From Pirellulales bacterium (GTDB lineage Bacteria > Planctomycetota > Planctomycetia > Pirellulales > JAICIG01), in assembly GCA_035533075.1 (NCBI GenBank), contig DATLUO010000121.1, positions 1-64,000 of the forward strand: 64,000 nt of DNA. Direction: 5' to 3'. Made by a program: the position numbers and the translations under genes. Each line of letters begins with the position of its first letter. Position 1 is the first letter of the stretch. Positions 5,903 through 23,911 of the stretch are shown here, one piece after another. Under the pieces are notes generated by a model. That model was not told the origin of the DNA, did not search any database, and saw nothing but the letters and a program-made list of their open reading frames with translations.

Positions 5903-8566
5903 CTACTTGCGGAACATCGCATCCTTCTTGTTTCCCCGCGACAAAAGATATGCCAGCAGGTCGAGCACTTCCTCGTCGTTGAGCGGCTTCAATAGGCCGT
6001 CGGGCATCAGCGAGACCGGCGAAGGCTGCAGCGATTCGATGTTGTCGCGCCGCACCGTCAACGTCTTCGTCGCGTCTTCGGGGTTCGTCACCACGACCAG
6101 CGCGTCGTCGGTTTCCGAAAAAACGCGGCCGCTGACGAGCTGCCCGTCCTTGGTCTCGATCAGCGTGGCCCGGTATTGGTCGCTGATCACCTTGCTCGGC
6201 TCGATCATCGCCTCGCTCAGGTCCTTGACGGTGAACCGGGCCGCCAACTGCGTCAGGTCCGGACCCGTCGCGCCGCCGTCGCCGGCAAAGCGATGGCAGA
6301 TCAGGCATCGCGCGGCCGCGAACATCTTCTTGCCGTTCTCGAAGTCGCGGCCCTTCAGCCCGTGGTCGGCCAGACCGATCAGGTCGGACACGTTGCGGTC
6401 GCGGCCCGGCCCGGCCGGCTTGGGCAATTCCGGCGGCTGATATGGCTTGCGGGCACCGAGGGCCTCCATCGCCAGCCGCTCGCGCTCGCTGGCGTTCTCG
6501 TATGCCTCGCGCTCGATGTTTCGCAAAAAACCCTGGAAGCTCGAACCGCCTTTCCAGGTTCCGGCACGCTCGAACCAGCCGAAGTACGCTTTGCGCTCGG
6601 CCATCGTCCAGCCTTCTTTCATGTTTCGCAAGGCGAAGGCGTAGTGAATTTGCGTCGGGTCGGGATGGTGGGCCAAGATCGATGCGACGGTGCCGCCGTA
6701 ACCTTTGTTCCGTCCGAGGATTGCCCCCAGCTCGGTCGTCTGCGGCTTTGACGGCTGCTCCATAAAAGCCACGCCCTTACCGATGATCGTCGGCGAACGA
6801 AAGTAGACCAGCAGGTCGATCAACTCGCGATTCACCGGGTCGCTGTGAGTAGGGAAGAGCGGATCGAACTTGGCGATCAGCGAAAGCCGCAAGCTCTCGT
6901 CCGGCTCGCCCAGGCGGATGAAGACGAGTTGATACGCCCGTAACAACTCGATCTGCTGCGTTTCGGGCAACGCAGCCAGATCCAGGCGGTCGAGGGCGGC
7001 CAGCAACGGTCCGCGCAGCGATTTGTCGGCTTGCCGGGCCAGGCCGACCGCGCCGGTGATGAGCGCCTCGGCGTTGCTCTCGGCCAGCACGCGGTCTTGC
7101 CAGAGTTTGACGTCCTGGTTCTCCAAGGCGATACGGGCCGCGTAGCGAATGAACCGGTCGGGGTGAGCAAGATGCGGGAAAACGAACTCGATCGCCTGTG
7201 CCGGGTCGTCGGCCTGGCGGTGATAGGCTTCGATTTGGTGCCTCAATTTGCGCATTTCGGCCGAGCGGCTGTCGTGCGAGTCGACCGGGGCGGTCGGCTC
7301 CTGGCCGACGTAGGTCACGCGGAACAACTCCGACTGCGTGTTGCGGCCGCCGGTCGAGAAATAGAGCGCGCCGTCTTTTCCCACGGCCACGTCGGTCAAG
7401 GGGAGCGGAGAGCGGCCCAAAAACTCCTCTTTCACGCCCTGGTAGCTCGATCCCGCTGGTTCGGTGTGGACGGCGTACATGGTGCCGAAAGTCCAGTCGC
7501 AGATGAAAAATGCCCGCTGATACTTGGCGGGAAACTTCGTTCCGTAACCGAAGGCCGCGCCGACGGGCGAACCGGGTCCGATATCGACCACCGCCGGCAG
7601 GCTATCGACGTAATAGGCGGGCCACTTGCCTGTGCCGCTGCGCCAGCCGAACTCGCTGCCGCTGGTGGCATGCGACACGCGAGTGGGGCGATACCAAGGC
7701 GCGCCCATGTCCCACTCCATGTCGGCGTCGTAGACGAAGAGCTCGCCATCGGCGTTGAAGGCCATGTCGTAGGGATTGCGGTAGCCATTGCTGATGATGT
7801 CCCAGATTTTGCCGTCGGCATCGGTTTTCGCCACCCAACCGCCGGGCGCCAGAACGCCCACCCCAAAGCCGCCCGCGTCCCACTGGCGCGGCAAGAGCAG
7901 GTCTTCGCCCCAGTTGGTCGGCGCGCGGCTGCGGTGATCGGCACTGGGCGGCCCGCTGGGATCGAAGGGCGGACGCGTGAAGTTGCCCGCCAGATAATAG
8001 AGCGACTGGCCGTCGGGCGACAGCAGCACGGCGTGCGGGCCATGTTCGCCGCCGCCACGAATTTCCTTGAGTTTCTCGACCTGATCGAACTGGTCGTCGC
8101 CGTTGGTGTCTTTCACTCGATAAAGGCCGCTGCCGCCCGAAAAACCGTTGGCCGAAACATAGAGCGAGTCGAAAGCGTAGACCATGCCCTGGGCCGAGCT
8201 GATCTTGGCATCGAGCCGCTCGACTTTGGTCGGTTCGTGGGAGCCGATCGGCGGCAGGGTGATGCGGCACAGCCCTTTGTCGCCCTGATCGCTGGCGATC
8301 AATCGCCCCCTGTTGTCGAATGCGATCGAGACCCACGAGCCAAGCTCGTCTTTCGGCACCGTGAACAGGTGTTCGATCTGAAAGCCGGGCAAAACGTCGA
8401 AGGGGTGCTCGTCGGCCGGTGCCGATTCATCCGTGGCCTTGCCGCCGGCGGTGGGTGCGATCTTGGGCGGTTCGGTAAAGACCTTTTGCTCGCTGGCGGC
8501 GGTGCCGGCCCGACCCGTGGCGAGCACGGACATCAGGACAAAGTTAAAGGCAAGAATGCGACGCAT
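5903..8566 (-). CDS. Secreted PVC-type haem-binding CxxCH protein with beta-propeller
   Basis: 887 aa from the ATG at 8566, chosen because it opens with a signal peptide (MRRILAFNFVLMSVLATG); the longer open frame adds 26 residues with no signal character. Residues 50-430 form a sorbosone-dehydrogenase-like six-bladed propeller (LPGFQIEHLFTVP, RNPYDMAFNADGELFVYDAD, EFGWRSGTGKWP). A helical repeat region follows, then a c-type cytochrome module near residue 755 with CLICHRFAGDGGATGPDL, and a beta domain (TLIETKDGQLVSGRV). The architecture is characteristic of planctomycetes and verrucomicrobia and is thought to serve periplasmic electron transfer or carbohydrate oxidation; the substrate is unknown. 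It is transcribed alone. Confidence 0.92.
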   Translation of the reverse strand: MRRILAFNFVLMSVLATGRAGTAASEQKVFTEPPKIAPTAGGKATDESAPADEHPFDVLPGFQIEHLFTVPKDELGSWVSIAFDNRGRLIASDQGDKGLCRITLPPIGSHEPTKVERLDAKISSAQGMVYAFDSLYVSANGFSGGSGLYRVKDTNGDDQFDQVEKLKEIRGGGEHGPHAVLLSPDGQSLYYLAGNFTRPPFDPSGPPSADHRSRAPTNWGEDLLLPRQWDAGGFGVGVLAPGGWVAKTDADGKIWDIISNGYRNPYDMAFNADGELFVYDADMEWDMGAPWYRPTRVSHATSGSEFGWRSGTGKWPAYYVDSLPAVVDIGPGSPVGAAFGYGTKFPAKYQRAFFICDWTFGTMYAVHTEPAGSSYQGVKEEFLGRSPLPLTDVAVGKDGALYFSTGGRNTQSELFRVTYVGQEPTAPVDSHDSRSAEMRKLRHQIEAYHRQADDPAQAIEFVFPHLAHPDRFIRYAARIALENQDVKLWQDRVLAESNAEALITGAVGLARQADKSLRGPLLAALDRLDLAALPETQQIELLRAYQLVFIRLGEPDESLRLSLIAKFDPLFPTHSDPVNRELIDLLVYFRSPTIIGKGVAFMEQPSKPQTTELGAILGRNKGYGGTVASILAHHPDPTQIHYAFALRNMKEGWTMAERKAYFGWFERAGTWKGGSSFQGFLRNIEREAYENASERERLAMEALGARKPYQPPELPKPAGPGRDRNVSDLIGLADHGLKGRDFENGKKMFAAARCLICHRFAGDGGATGPDLTQLAARFTVKDLSEAMIEPSKVISDQYRATLIETKDGQLVSGRVFSETDDALVVVTNPEDATKTLTVRRDNIESLQPSPVSLMPDGLLKPLNDEEVLDLLAYLLSRGNKKDAMFRK

Positions 8567-12007: not shown

Positions 12008-13759
12008 TTGCTGATTGGTCCGGTTTTCACGCGCGAAGCGGTCACGGCGCCGCGTCGGGCAAGATTGTATATTGCGCGTGCCGCCTATGGCTCGGCCCTG
12101 CTGGTGCTCGTGACCACCGCCTGGCAGGTGCTGGCCGGCACACAAGAGGTCCGCAATCTCGGCGACTTGGCGCGCTTCGGCGCCACCGTGTTCGCCATTC
12201 TCGCCCCCCTTCAGCTTGCGGTGACCATGTTCTTCGCCGCTCTCTCGGCAGCCAGCGCCGTGGCGGCCGAAAAAGACCGCCAGACACTGACGTTGTTGTT
12301 GCTGACGCACCTCTCCAATGTCGAGCTCGTGCTGGGCAAACTGGCGGCGGCCATGCTCAACGTGGTCACCTTGATCGTCACCGCCCTGCCGCTGTTCATG
12401 CTGCTTACGCTGCTGGGCGGCGTCTCGTTCGAGCAGATCGGCCGCGTGTTCGCCGTGACGCTGGCCAGCGCCGTGGCCGCGGGCAGCCTCGGCTCGACCT
12501 TCGCCCTGTGGCGCGAAAAGACCTTTCAGACCCTGGCGATGACGGCCTTGTCGCTCGTGCTCTGGCTGGCGGCCAGCGAAGTGGCCGTGCAAGCGGCCGC
12601 CGCGAACGACCGGCCCGACCTGGCGGCCCTCGCCGCCGGATTCAGCCCCTGGCGAGCGATGCTCGAAGCGATACGCCCGTACCCGGACACCGTCGAAACG
12701 CTCGGCGCCGTCGGCAATCCGGTCTGGCTCTTCCTGCTGGTGGCCGCCGCCGCGACTATGCTGCTCAATGGGCTGGCGATCTGGCGCGTCCGCAAGTGGA
12801 ATCCGCCGCAAGAGGCCGGCCGCCTGCCCGCCGGCATGAGCGAAGACGACCGGGCACGAGCGGCCGCGCCGGCCAAGGTGGTCAAATCGCGCGAAGTCTG
12901 GGACAACCCCATTCTCTGGCGAGAGGTCTGTACCTGGGCCTACGGGCGAAAGATGCTCATCGTGCGGCTGGCGTACGTCGTTCTGTTCGTGGTGGCGATG
13001 GGAGCACTTTATTCGCTCCTGCACCAGCCGGGCAGAGCCGAGCGCAGCGACCTGGCGGCCGTCGTCGTTCCCTTCCTGGTGCTGAGCCTGGTGTTGCTCA
13101 ATGCCCAGTCGGTCACCGCGTTGACCAGCGAACGCGACGCGCGGGCCCTCGACCTGCTGCTGGTGACCGACCTGACGCCGCAAGAGTTCATTTCCGGCAA
13201 GCTGGGCGGCATCCTTTACAATACGAAGGAGATGGTCGTCTTGCCGCTGGTGCTGTGCGGCTATCTCTGGTCCGGCGACGCCATCTCGCTGGAGAACGTG
13301 ACCTACCTGTCGCTCGGTTGGCTGGTGCTTTGCTTCTTCGCGGCCATGCTCGGCGTTCACGTGGGCATGACGTATGCCAGCTCGCGCGGCGCGATCGCGG
13401 TGAGTCTGGGCACGGTGTTTTTCTTGTTTGTCGGCGTGGCGGTCTGCATGCGGATCATGGTGGCGTTCAGCAGCTCGTTTCAGGTGCAGCTCCAGCCGTT
13501 CTTGGCGTTCATGGTGGGCGGCGGCATCGGCCTTTATGTGGCGTTGGGCATCCGCAATCCCTCGCCTGCGATTCTGGCGGCATCGTTCGGTTGCCCGTTC
13601 GCCATTTTCTATGCGATCACCAGCTTCCTCTTGGGCTACACGTTGGCGGTGTTTTTGGTGCTGTCGTTCATGTTCGGCTTCACGACGGCGGCGATGCTGG
13701 TGCCGGCGCTGTTCGAATTCGACGTGGCCACCGGCCGCACGCTGGGCGGAGAAGAGTAG
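12008..13759 (+). CDS. ABC-2 type transporter permease, two fused halves
   Basis: 583 aa from a TTG start preceded by GAGGAG. About twelve hydrophobic segments fall into two groups: residues 20-270, and 320-580 after a hydrophilic linker rich in charged residues (RKWNPPQEAGRLPAG to KVVKSREVW). Each half carries the ABC-2 pattern in which a membrane helix is followed by a cytoplasmic EKDRQTLTLLLLTHLS or SERDARALDLLLVTDL motif. Members export lipids, drugs or polysaccharide, or serve gliding and cell-surface functions. No ATP-binding subunit is encoded nearby, so the partner ATPase must lie elsewhere. The substrate is unknown. Confidence 0.85.
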   Translation: MLIGPVFTREAVTAPRRARLYIARAAYGSALLVLVTTAWQVLAGTQEVRNLGDLARFGATVFAILAPLQLAVTMFFAALSAASAVAAEKDRQTLTLLLLTHLSNVELVLGKLAAAMLNVVTLIVTALPLFMLLTLLGGVSFEQIGRVFAVTLASAVAAGSLGSTFALWREKTFQTLAMTALSLVLWLAASEVAVQAAAANDRPDLAALAAGFSPWRAMLEAIRPYPDTVETLGAVGNPVWLFLLVAAAATMLLNGLAIWRVRKWNPPQEAGRLPAGMSEDDRARAAAPAKVVKSREVWDNPILWREVCTWAYGRKMLIVRLAYVVLFVVAMGALYSLLHQPGRAERSDLAAVVVPFLVLSLVLLNAQSVTALTSERDARALDLLLVTDLTPQEFISGKLGGILYNTKEMVVLPLVLCGYLWSGDAISLENVTYLSLGWLVLCFFAAMLGVHVGMTYASSRGAIAVSLGTVFFLFVGVAVCMRIMVAFSSSFQVQLQPFLAFMVGGGIGLYVALGIRNPSPAILAASFGCPFAIFYAITSFLLGYTLAVFLVLSFMFGFTTAAMLVPALFEFDVATGRTLGGEE

Positions 13760-21584: not shown

Positions 21585-21595
21585 TGGGTAATGGC

Positions 21596-21760
21596 CTATT
21601 CCTGTGTGGCTGGCGCACTGAGGTCATGTATCACAACGCCCTCGGCCCACCCATCAGCTGTCATCGTTCGCTTTTGCCAGGATGCGCCGGTAAAGAACGC
21701 AGCCACGACGAGCATGGCCACGAACAACCACTTCAAGCTGAACTGAAAACGGCTGCGCAT
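21596..21760 (-). CDS. Small single-pass membrane protein (54 aa)
   Basis: MRSRFQFSLKWLFVAMLVVA, then AFFTGASWQKR, then a 20-residue polar tail ending APATQE. The RFQFSLKxLxVxMLVVAxFF opening is a recurring start of small membrane proteins in planctomycetes, which supports it as a real gene in spite of its length. The function is unknown. Its start lies 46 bp from the divergent tRNA-like gene. Confidence 0.55.
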   Translation of the reverse strand: MRSRFQFSLKWLFVAMLVVAAFFTGASWQKRTMTADGWAEGVVIHDLSAPATQE

Positions 21761-21805: not shown

Positions 21806-21916
21806 GCCCCTGTGGTGGAACTAGGCAGACACGCTGGGCTGATTGCGGCTTTCTCGCGAGAGCCTCAATCAGCCCCAGTGCCGCAAGGCGTGCGGGTTCG
21901 ATTCCCGCCGGGGGTA
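21806..21916 (+). tRNA. tRNA-Leu-like sequence with a 35-nt hairpin in place of the anticodon loop
   Basis: Acceptor GCCCCTG pairs with CGGGGGT (21909-21915), giving the G1-U72 pair of tRNA-Leu(UAA). The Leu D-arm (GTG, loop with AGGCAGA, CAC), class II variable arm (GCC, GCAA, GGC) and T-arm (GCGGG, TTCGATT, CCCGC) are all intact, as is the anticodon stem CTGGG/CCCAG. The anticodon loop, however, is 35 nt (21839-21873) and forms its own hairpin (CTGATTG/CAATCAG plus an inner GGCT/AGCC). No 7-nt loop with a Leu anticodon can be made by simple excision. TACAAT (21791-21796) sits 9 bp upstream as a -10. No CCA is encoded. It may be an interrupted pseudo-tRNA or an unusual functional RNA. Confidence 0.6.
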
Positions 21917-21917
21917 C

Positions 21918-22397
21918 TCAAAGCCTTATTCCAGCCTCCGCCAGAAAGTCTATGGGGCTGGCCCACCCGACTTTGAGCGCGTTGCAGACGTCTGGTATTT
22001 TGGGCGGCTTGCTGGCCCGTCGATTGGGCGCCGACACTTCGTCTGTCACAACGATTGCGCCACGCGACATGGCTTCGGCGATAACCCAGGGGTCCGAGGC
22101 ATTCGCGTGGCCACTTTCAGCCGCGAAATTCGGGAAGTGGCCCATTATGTGTTGCATGTTCGCTATGACCTGATCGTCTGGCTCGAAAAAGAACTGCTTT
22201 CGTTGCGTTGCCCAGACGAGCAGAGGGTCTCGTTGCTTCTTTAGGTCGTCAAACACTTCTCTGCACGAGAAGACATTTCCAGCATAAAGAAGCTTGTCAA
22301 TTTCTTCCCAAAGCGTCGGGAATACGTCTCTCCGGTAGCGCTTCCACCAGCCGTTGTTCAGAAAGCTCGTGTCTAAGCAGAATAGCGTCGCAATCAC
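21918..22397 (-). CDS. DUF4411 family PIN-like protein
   Basis: 159 aa. LFCLDTSFLNNGWWKRY at the N-terminus supplies the first PIN acidic residue. FPTLWEEIDKLLYAGNVFSC, a conserved REVFDDLKKQRDPL, SDPWVIAEAMSRGAIVVTDE (central acidic residues) and KIPDVCNALKVGWASPIDFL follow, matching DUF4411. PIN folds are usually RNases and typically toxins. The start overlaps the stop of the ImmA/IrrE gene by 4 bp, so the two are co-translated. The stop codon begins 2 bases after the end of the tRNA-like sequence on the other strand. Base composition is clearly lower in GC than its neighbours. Confidence 0.88.
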   Translation of the reverse strand: MIATLFCLDTSFLNNGWWKRYRRDVFPTLWEEIDKLLYAGNVFSCREVFDDLKKQRDPLLVWATQRKQFFFEPDDQVIANMQHIMGHFPNFAAESGHANASDPWVIAEAMSRGAIVVTDEVSAPNRRASKPPKIPDVCNALKVGWASPIDFLAEAGIRL

Positions 22398-23569
22398 GAC
22401 ATGCCGCTCTCCTCCGATTGCATCTGCACCGGATAAAGAGAATGCACCATCGGTGCGAGATGTTTGAGGGGCATGTTCAAAAGTGTCGTAACCTGACCGC
22501 CGTGAATCTCTCCAGAATCAAAAGCCGAAACAACCAGCCGCGCGAAAGACGGACCGGAACGAGACAGTACAAGCCGGTATTGTGGGATGGGCCTGTCGCT
22601 TGATTCTGCGGCCTCAGCCTCTGGTTTTGGGTGAAACATCGCCCACCTGTTTGAAAGCCAGTCATTATCGGCCATCCCAAGTTCGGCCAGCCGTATTGCC
22701 ATGACAGCTCGGCTAACCCTATAGCGATTTGCGAATTGCGATACAACGCTCTCCTCATTGTTCTCCCAGTTATTCGGCACCCGAATAACAATGTCGTCGC
22801 TTGGAATTAGAACCTCCGCCGCAACTTTATTGCAGAACCGTTCGACGTTAGATTGTGGGGCAAGCGCCGAAGTAATGGCGTCCCCGGTGGTAATCGCCGA
22901 TTCTCCCAGCGCAATATGCACTACCTCATGGATCAAGGTGAAACACTTGGCCGTGTTGGCATCGCGACTATTGATAAGGGCAACGGGTGCGTAATCGTCG
23001 GCGATAGCGCAGCCGCTTATCTCATTAGCTCGATTGGACTGAAACACGAAAACGCCAATCTGCTCACAAGCATCACGCCACATCGTAAACGCTTCGAGTT
23101 CATCGCGGCAACCAAATTGTCGCTCTAAACTGACCCCTAGTAGCGCACGCAACTTTACGCCAACATCCTTGGTGCTATCCGACACCTTGACCGAGCGAAC
23201 AACATCGCACTTTGGTGAATCCGAATCGCGCAGATATTCCGAAGCCCACTGCTGCCGTTCCTTAGCGGCCCGGATGGCATAGAGGAGAGCAGGCGAGAAG
23301 CGACGGCTAGCGTCACGTCGAATCCGAAAGTCGCGGACGTTGAATTCTTTGGGAGGTGCCGGCAAGTAAAAGACCATCAGCGGTCTTCTGTATCTCTTAG
23401 CCAGCTTTCGCAGCCTAGGGAGGGACGGACTTTCTTTTCCTGATTCCCAGTCAAGAATGTCCTGCTCGGAAAAGCTCTCGAATTTTGCGACCGCCTCGAC
23501 GGAATACCCAGCCCTCTCCCTCGCCCATTTGATCATCCGAGGCGTTGCGTTGGAAGAAACTCGTGGCAT
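22394..23569 (-). CDS. XRE-type regulator fused to ImmA/IrrE metallopeptidase
   Basis: 391 aa. Residues 10-65 form a helix-turn-helix (MIKWARERAGYSVEAVAKFE, ILDWESGKESPSLPRLRKLA). Residues 150-300 form the ImmA/IrrE zinc peptidase with IHEVVHIALGESA (His214, Glu215, His218) and ERFCNKVAAEVLIP. In phage and ICE systems such proteins cleave a repressor; paired with DUF4411 they behave like a toxin-antitoxin or stress-responsive unit in many genomes. It is first gene of the operon, driven by the consensus promoter at 23651-23690, which it probably represses itself (inference from the overlapping dyad). Confidence 0.9.
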   Translation of the reverse strand: MPRVSSNATPRMIKWARERAGYSVEAVAKFESFSEQDILDWESGKESPSLPRLRKLAKRYRRPLMVFYLPAPPKEFNVRDFRIRRDASRRFSPALLYAIRAAKERQQWASEYLRDSDSPKCDVVRSVKVSDSTKDVGVKLRALLGVSLERQFGCRDELEAFTMWRDACEQIGVFVFQSNRANEISGCAIADDYAPVALINSRDANTAKCFTLIHEVVHIALGESAITTGDAITSALAPQSNVERFCNKVAAEVLIPSDDIVIRVPNNWENNEESVVSQFANRYRVSRAVMAIRLAELGMADNDWLSNRWAMFHPKPEAEAAESSDRPIPQYRLVLSRSGPSFARLVVSAFDSGEIHGGQVTTLLNMPLKHLAPMVHSLYPVQMQSEESGMS

Positions 23570-23725: not shown

Positions 23726-23814
23726 GGAGAGCGATCCGCGCCTTGGCGGCGCAGGCGACTTATAACCGCCCGCAGGGGCGCTTTTGCGCTGGGTTCGATT
23801 CCCCCCTCTCTCCG
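23726..23814 (+). tRNA. Aberrant class II tRNA-like sequence, anticodon-like UAU
   Basis: GGAGAGCG pairs with CTCTCTCC (23806-23813) as an 8-bp acceptor with one C-T mismatch. The D-arm is a 5-bp stem GCGCC/GGCGC with a 5-nt loop. The anticodon arm is GGCGA, CTTATAA, CCGCC with an A-C mismatch at the closing pair. The variable arm is GCGC, TTTT, GCGC. The T-loop TTCGATT has only three stable pairs (GGG/CCC), and the discriminator is G. This is Ser- or Sec-like in layout and resembles published allo-tRNAs with shifted acceptor/T-stem lengths, but the anticodon would be UAU. Decay of a tRNA-Ser is the alternative. The rest of 23570-23911 is empty. Confidence 0.45.
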
Positions 23815-23911
23815 CTAGTCCCGCCTGGACTCGCGTTTAGATGCCTTCGTCAGCCGCTCCCGAATCCACGTGCATGGTATGCCTTTCGGTTTGGGCCGCG
23901 TGAAGTATAGC

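Follow-up and report, generated by a model that had tools for sequence, protein, structure and literature searches.

The tRNA-like RNA and its neighbours in the window

The window, which is the whole 64,000-nucleotide stretch of DNA analysed here, carries on its forward strand a tRNA-like RNA with two cargo genes on its 5' side and the remnant of a ribbon-helix-helix (RHH) gene directly against its 3' end. The features at this locus are as follows.

21587–21610, + strand: candidate degenerate left terminal inverted repeat (TIR), GGTAATGGCCTATTCCTGTGTGGC; tentative, at 17/24 matches to the consensus of complete elements against 16 for the best of 100 shuffles
21806–21916, + strand: tRNA-Leu-like gene (Rfam tRNA model, 39.7 bits; no ARAGORN call)
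21918–22397, − strand: DUF4411 protein, cargo partner of the XRE/ImmA gene (Pfam, 128.5 bits)
22394–23569, − strand: XRE plus ImmA/IrrE-type (Peptidase_M78) cargo gene (Pfam; in PADLOC, weak similarity to the RmrA/CapP defence models)
23726–23814, + strand: tRNA-like RNA of the allo-tRNA-UAU type, with Ser-type acceptor, G73, 3-bp T-stem and variable arm (covariance model R1, 85.5 bits; covariation in 58 copies)
23759–23765, + strand: anticodon loop CUUAUAA with the anticodon UAU at 23761–23763, which would read AUA (direct reading; loops of 58 copies)
23815–23871, − strand: stub of the RHH gene, its C-terminal end TWIRERLTKASKRESRRD, comprising the last ~18 codons and a TAG stop that abuts the discriminator base of the RNA

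Read directly, the RNA has an acceptor of six pairs (GGAGAG/CTCTCC), beyond which a C.U mismatch precedes one G-C pair. The D-stem (GCGCC/GGCGC) has 5 bp and closes a 5-nt loop (UUGGC). In the anticodon stem four pairs are accompanied by one A.C mismatch, the variable arm is short (GCGC-UUUU-GCGC), and the 3-bp T-stem (GGG/CCC) closes the loop UUCGAUU. The discriminator is G73. The original prediction had placed an RNA with these features at 23726–23814, and both the direct reading and the covariation of 58 copies confirm it; the UAU anticodon that it named is likewise read directly and lies in a loop that is nearly fixed in the family. Compared to the family norm, the window copy has the A.C in its anticodon stem, an A at position 9 and an extra C in the 3' strand of the acceptor/T branch. 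In allo-tRNAs this branch amounts to 12 bp, divided 8/4 or 9/3. The family consensus here is 9/3, with pair 7 unpaired in 39 of the 58 copies; in the window copy, the extra C and A9 leave eight positions with one mismatch plus three T pairs.

The folding energy of the RNA is ordinary (z = −0.84; 37 of 200 shuffles are as low), and because this is no better than chance, folding energy alone is uninformative on whether the RNA is real. ARAGORN calls no tRNA here. The covariance search with a tRNA-Sec model that had been proposed as a check does return a match (RF01852), at 28.4 bits, which falls under the cut-off of 47. The RNA shares its overall cloverleaf with tRNA-Sec, but that identity is ruled out by this score and by an anticodon that is UAU rather than UCA; the host genome's own tRNA-Sec scores 62.2 bits with Rfam. 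Ser-type features (long variable arm, G73, Ser-type acceptor) and a non-Ser anticodon, UAU, are both present, as in allo-tRNAs. The host tRNA-Ser(GCU), which we recovered through the tRNA-Sec family search after a dedicated tRNA-Ser pattern had matched nothing, has the same first six acceptor pairs and the same G73. The earlier description of an allo-tRNA-like or tRNA-Sec-like RNA of Ser type holds. Judged from its sequence and that of its relatives, the RNA is real and belongs to the published allo-tRNA-UAU group, and its Ser-like acceptor, G73 and variable arm suggest that it would be charged with Ser.

The tRNA-Leu-like gene has the tentative left TIR on one side and the DUF4411 gene on the other. 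Owing to an insert, its anticodon arm forms a long hairpin that lacks a normal anticodon loop, and its relatives mostly match in the 3' part only, as in ordinary tRNA-Leu.

An RNA family carried by IS1-family transposons

A second copy of the RNA in the window's genome is 88% identical at the DNA level, and DNA matches occur in 15 of 57 relatives. With the covariance model R1, built from 19 copies, the number in the window's genome rises to four. R1 matches at E ≤ 1e-4 are found in 36 of the 196 genomes of the order; those of at least 50 bits amount to 50 copies in 28 of the 196. We excluded matches of ~40 bits, which are probably ordinary tRNAs, judged as a group rather than singly. The working set comprises 58 distinct copies, namely these 50 plus eight from named contigs, one of the latter at 43.4 bits. 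A pattern scan of genome contigs gave 27 loci, of which L054, L059, L065, L068, L069 and L071 fail the covariance model and are probably due to chance. L139 was left out as off-family, and L132 (the same as L119) and L141 (the same as L023) were each counted once. Members outside the order are few: a scan of the phylum finds the RNA in 3 of 294 genomes, the window's own being counted among the three, and the RNA-bearing hosts found are mainly Pirellulales-type planctomycetes. One copy (L061, JAKOVF010000285.1; 97.1 bits), accompanied by a transposase, comes from a metagenome-assembled genome labelled Chloroflexota, which could reflect cross-phylum transfer or mis-binning.

Across the 58 copies, 91.1% of cells are paired, and two-sided changes occur at 17 of the 22 pairs. 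None of 500 shuffles reaches the observed value on any of five measures, and slid controls pair at 39–65%. The 58-copy alignment was fitted to the model; as an independent check, RNAalifold run on the unfitted 19-row alignment recovers the acceptor end and the D, anticodon and T stems. With two poor pairs omitted, G.U cells outnumber A.C cells by 75 to 13, which places the functional RNA on the + strand of the window and rules out an RNA on the opposite strand. Of the 58 anticodon loops, 25 read CTTATAA and nearly all the rest are close to it. The anticodon is UAU in each of the 27 copies whose transposase is intact; UGU, UUU and AAU loops are confined to copies that lack an intact transposase. 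No promoter is conserved upstream of the RNA among the copies.

Among the 52 T arms of standard length, 38 have T-A as the 54-58 pair, 10 have A-T and 4 have A-A. In the 10, both partners of the U-A pair have changed together to A-U, and the UUCGAUU-type loop has become AUCGUAA (for example L123, L102, L103 and L112), an unusual change of a normally fixed tertiary pair.

The tRNA-like RNA is a fixed part of an IS1-family transposon. The order within the element is left inverted repeat, variable TA/defence cargo, RNA, convergent RHH gene, divergent transposase and right repeat. An IS1-type transposase, or at least a piece of one, lies downstream on the same strand in 39 of the 58 copies and starts ~450–500 nt from the 5' end of the RNA; the other 19 include contig ends (in two, the right flank is 423 and 946 nt) and true relics, among them the window copy. 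Among 39 genomes without the RNA, the transposase is present in three, one of them being the truncated L129. Both transposases that we scanned exceed the cut-off of the IS1 Pfam model PF03400, one at 45.4 bits and one just (25.5 against 24.1). For the latter, the best solved match of the predicted structure (mean pLDDT 80.7) in a fold search is the ISCth4 transposase.

TIRs together with an exact 8-bp duplication were found in 24 of the 58 copies, compared to 1–5 copies when the duplication test was shifted. IS1 elements make target duplications of 8–9 bp. We removed one of the 24 (L113) for its poor TIR; the 23 complete elements measure 2361–5203 bp, and most of their ends start with GGTAGTG or GGTACTG. 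An attC- or att-like recombination site, a candidate raised by the sharp 5' border of the RNA, was dropped once TIRs and target duplications had been found far from the RNA. The window's genome itself holds a complete 5.2-kb element (L119, G000:C212) with identical 24-nt ends and the target duplication CAGCTTAG; its cargo is Vsr, a C5 methyltransferase and a GmrSD-type protein, and its transposase is split over two overlapping frames. At another locus (L039), two RNA copies in the same orientation (7033–7122 and 12045–12133) lie 5 kb apart, each with its own transposase, and represent neighbouring elements of different sub-lineages. A search by T-loop pattern found no second tRNA-like gene in other elements.

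The small convergent gene ends tail-to-tail with the RNA at the discriminator base, its stop lying within 0–6 nt in most copies. Its product matches RHH_1 (Pfam) in two relatives; a third has no Pfam match. Judging from its position, the RHH protein is probably a transcriptional repressor of the divergent transposase.

The cargo between the left repeat and the RNA varies by element and occurs on either strand. TA, abortive-infection, restriction or candidate-defence families, or the HTH half of such a pair, are present in 15 of the 23 complete elements: HigB, PemK/MazF, PIN, DUF5615, AIPR, AAA_21, XRE/ImmA, methyltransferases with Vsr and GmrSD, PDC-M04A and HTH_3. The scanned ORFs of the other eight contain no recognised TA or defence family. 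On alphaproteobacterial plasmids, relatives that lack the RNA are annotated as IS1 family transposase, and some also lie beside HTH or TA-type genes, so the cargo habit can do without the RNA. Some elements have an additional HARE-HTH gene at the far left. A gene just inside the left repeat recurs in L102, L103, L110, L116, L039 and L125, and its copies end alike (...RGCR..., ...DG.GRW). Its members include a HARE-HTH protein and one with no Pfam match, and it may belong to the core of a sub-lineage as an additional gene.

The original prediction missed that the RNA is a component of a TA/defence-carrying IS1-family transposon and that the window copy is a relic of one. Here the cargo and the RNA have been kept, including the DUF4411 protein, which we take to be a PIN-like toxin candidate. 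The RHH gene is reduced to a stub and the transposase is gone, with none within 6 kb of the RNA; of the two TIRs of a complete transposon, only the tentative, degenerate left one is recognisable. The relic's RNA still scores as given above with R1. Since it has no transposase, there is nothing for this copy to regulate in cis.

AUA codons in the transposase

In the 27 intact transposases, 66 of the 73 in-frame AUA codons (counted without the first two codons of each gene) fall within alignment columns 238–284, a stretch of 41–44 codons just before the catalytic Glu that holds 1–4 AUA per element. This corresponds to 66 in 1126 codons, compared to 7 in 7470 elsewhere (Fisher test on Ile codons, p = 9e-36; the stretch was picked after the data had been seen, and only the small later set described below is a fresh test). 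Within the stretch, AUA occurs 66 times in frame and 8 and 5 times in the other two frames. GC3 is about equal inside and outside (0.67 and 0.69), and other A-ending codons are not generally raised. One alignment column has AUA in 17 sequences and AUG in 10, never AUU or AUC. Two lineages place AUA differently (...YSPxxIIG... and ...GI...TICTSH...); this, together with enrichment in frame 0 only, weakens a fixed DNA motif as the cause.

AUA is present in the stretch in all 34 RNA-bearing elements in which it is readable: the 27 intact ones plus seven later ones not used to find the pattern (L144, L134, L119, L025, L023, L050 and L104). Short fragments such as L036, L055, L051 and L121 were left out. 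None of the 15 RNA-less relatives has it (L130, L131, L133, L135–L138, L140 and L148–L154, with L138, L140 and L154 read only in part). Counting against the link, two truncated transposase relics with no RNA detected nearby (L129 and L142) do have AUA in the stretch, and one AUA remains in the partly readable stretch of L024, whose RNA has the anticodon UGU. On the transposase tree, presence of the RNA changes three times, two of the changes being forced by strongly supported branches, and the RNA-less L130 and L131 are nested in a clade of mostly RNA-bearing sequences. A single common ancestor therefore does not account for the tie between AUA and RNA.

Host genes next to complete elements use AUA at 2.23 per 1000, which makes it their second-rarest codon. 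The cargo genes are richer in it than the host genes, at 10.3 per 1000, which also counts against the codon link. Since TilS is present in the host, AUA should be read there as Ile. The original prediction held that the RNA, if active, would misread Ile codons as Ser and be expected to be regulated or toxic. Given that AUA is rare in host genes and concentrated in the element's transposase, toxicity to the cell is not the preferred interpretation, and the RNA is more likely to act on its own element.

Possible roles of the RNA

The RNA is the tRNA-like component of its IS1-family element, and we consider it probable that in intact elements it acts as a private AUA-reading tRNA, most likely one that would decode the element's own transposase mRNA. 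That the AUA codons are in frame and the UAU loop is conserved suggests decoding on the ribosome, where the RNA would compete at the AUA stretch with the host's lysidine tRNA-Ile(AUA). Ser at AUA would yield an inactive transposase, and with more copies of the element the dosage of the RNA would rise, resulting in self-restraint, while the RHH protein would repress the intergenic region shared with the divergent transposase. The likeliest sign of the effect is negative, with the RNA restraining transposition: the RNA is Ser-like, and since relatives mostly have hydrophobic residues where AUA occurs, Ser should harm the enzyme. Counting against this sign, RNA-less relatives have C-T, C-C, V-V or V-T at columns 261/262, and Ser there would not be absurd. 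Private decoding of this kind suggests a new mode of self-control by a mobile element. A more tentative extension, which we would put somewhat short of even, is a self-recoding transposon family in which a private Ser-type tRNA is combined with its codon in the catalytic region and the activity of the transposase is set by tRNA dosage, that is copy number.

The effect could also have the opposite sign, though this is doubtful. An active transposase would then require the RNA, either because AUA stands for Ser or because no other tRNA reads it efficiently, and transposition would be limited to settings in which the tRNA is expressed. That RNA and AUA stretch are kept together in 34/34 readable elements fits this, as do the RNA-less relatives of group A, whose Cys and Thr at two AUA columns are near Ser. 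However, the other main AUA column is Ile or Val in relatives, the host's TilS should give Ile at AUA, and a switch to a Ser codon would free the element. It seems improbable that the AUA cluster is a mere translational pause, for example for cis-binding of the nascent transposase, with the RNA acting elsewhere. The rarity of AUA in the host and the location of all AUA sites in the last part of the RNase-H-like domain agree with a pause, but the stretch is not enriched in other A-ending or rare codons, RNA-less relatives lack AUA, and the RNA carries the matching anticodon.

We give still less weight to the idea that the RNA serves the cargo, as toxin, decoy or target in adjacent TA modules. 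TA- or defence-type genes do adjoin the RNA in many copies, and a TA link is raised as a hypothesis in the accessible text of the review PMC7609411. The cargo changes family and strand while the RNA stays constant (methyltransferases, AIPR and GmrSD are among the families), 8 of the 23 complete elements have no such family in the ORFs scanned, and TA-type genes near RNA-less relatives manage without it. Finally, a decayed tRNA-Ser or a chance cloverleaf can hardly be the answer, even with the mismatches of the window copy, its ordinary folding energy and the first six acceptor pairs shared with the host tRNA-Ser(GCU): compensatory changes in 58 copies and the nearly fixed UAU loop refute it for the family. 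The original prediction had named a better fit to a decayed tRNA-Ser as what would speak against it, and family covariation excludes this, though the window copy itself may still be decaying.

Phage-encoded tRNAs that match phage codon use are a comparable case, in that a codon rare in the host is served by a tRNA which the mobile element itself supplies; unlike phages, the transposon carries one non-canonical Ser-type tRNA, and the codon is clustered in one stretch of one gene. With other IS1-family insertion sequences the elements share a DDE transposase, TIRs and the 8-bp target duplication, but they differ in having a single-ORF transposase of ~315–347 aa, an extra RHH gene, the tRNA-like RNA, and a length of 2.4–5.2 kb with cargo. 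TA pairs inside Tn3-family transposons are known (PMC7157771) and resemble the cargo here in being integral and exchangeable at a fixed place in the transposition module; the transposase there belongs to another family, and the accessible text of that paper mentions no tRNA-like RNA or codon link.

The UAU group of allo-tRNAs (Mukai et al. 2017, via PMC7609411) has the same Ser-type features and anticodon, together with a Sec-like long acceptor branch that the RNA here may share, and likewise comes from soil and sediment bacteria. The accessible text of PMC7609411 ranks UAU among the commonest allo-tRNA anticodons and its group as the most abundant in metagenomes from soil and sediment. It also describes a UAU pseudogene that shares sequence with a transposon-related ORF by overlap, and a suspected link to transposable elements or TA systems. 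The same text states that the UAU RNAs tested did not work in E. coli translation, which counts against decoding. Beyond what is reported there, the carrier here is an IS1-family element with TIRs and target duplications; the order of its genes is fixed, and its transposase contains the matching AUA codons. A literature search in which subscription papers were largely absent found no report of the element or of the codon link. What is new here is the RNA as a fixed part of an IS1-family transposon, with the matching codon clustered in the transposase.

UAU allo-tRNAs have so far been published without an explanation, and the transposon and its codon cluster make them a testable system. The codon link predicts which protein, which codons and which residues are affected. 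It also predicts that an allo-tRNA with a different anticodon may belong to an element in which the corresponding codon is clustered in the transposase. If the link is true, a tRNA/codon checkpoint joins the known controls of transposases, namely frameshifting, antisense RNA and repressors. Self-recoding, if it occurs, would mean that a tRNA exerts feedback on transposition and that the meaning of a codon changes locally, for this element alone.
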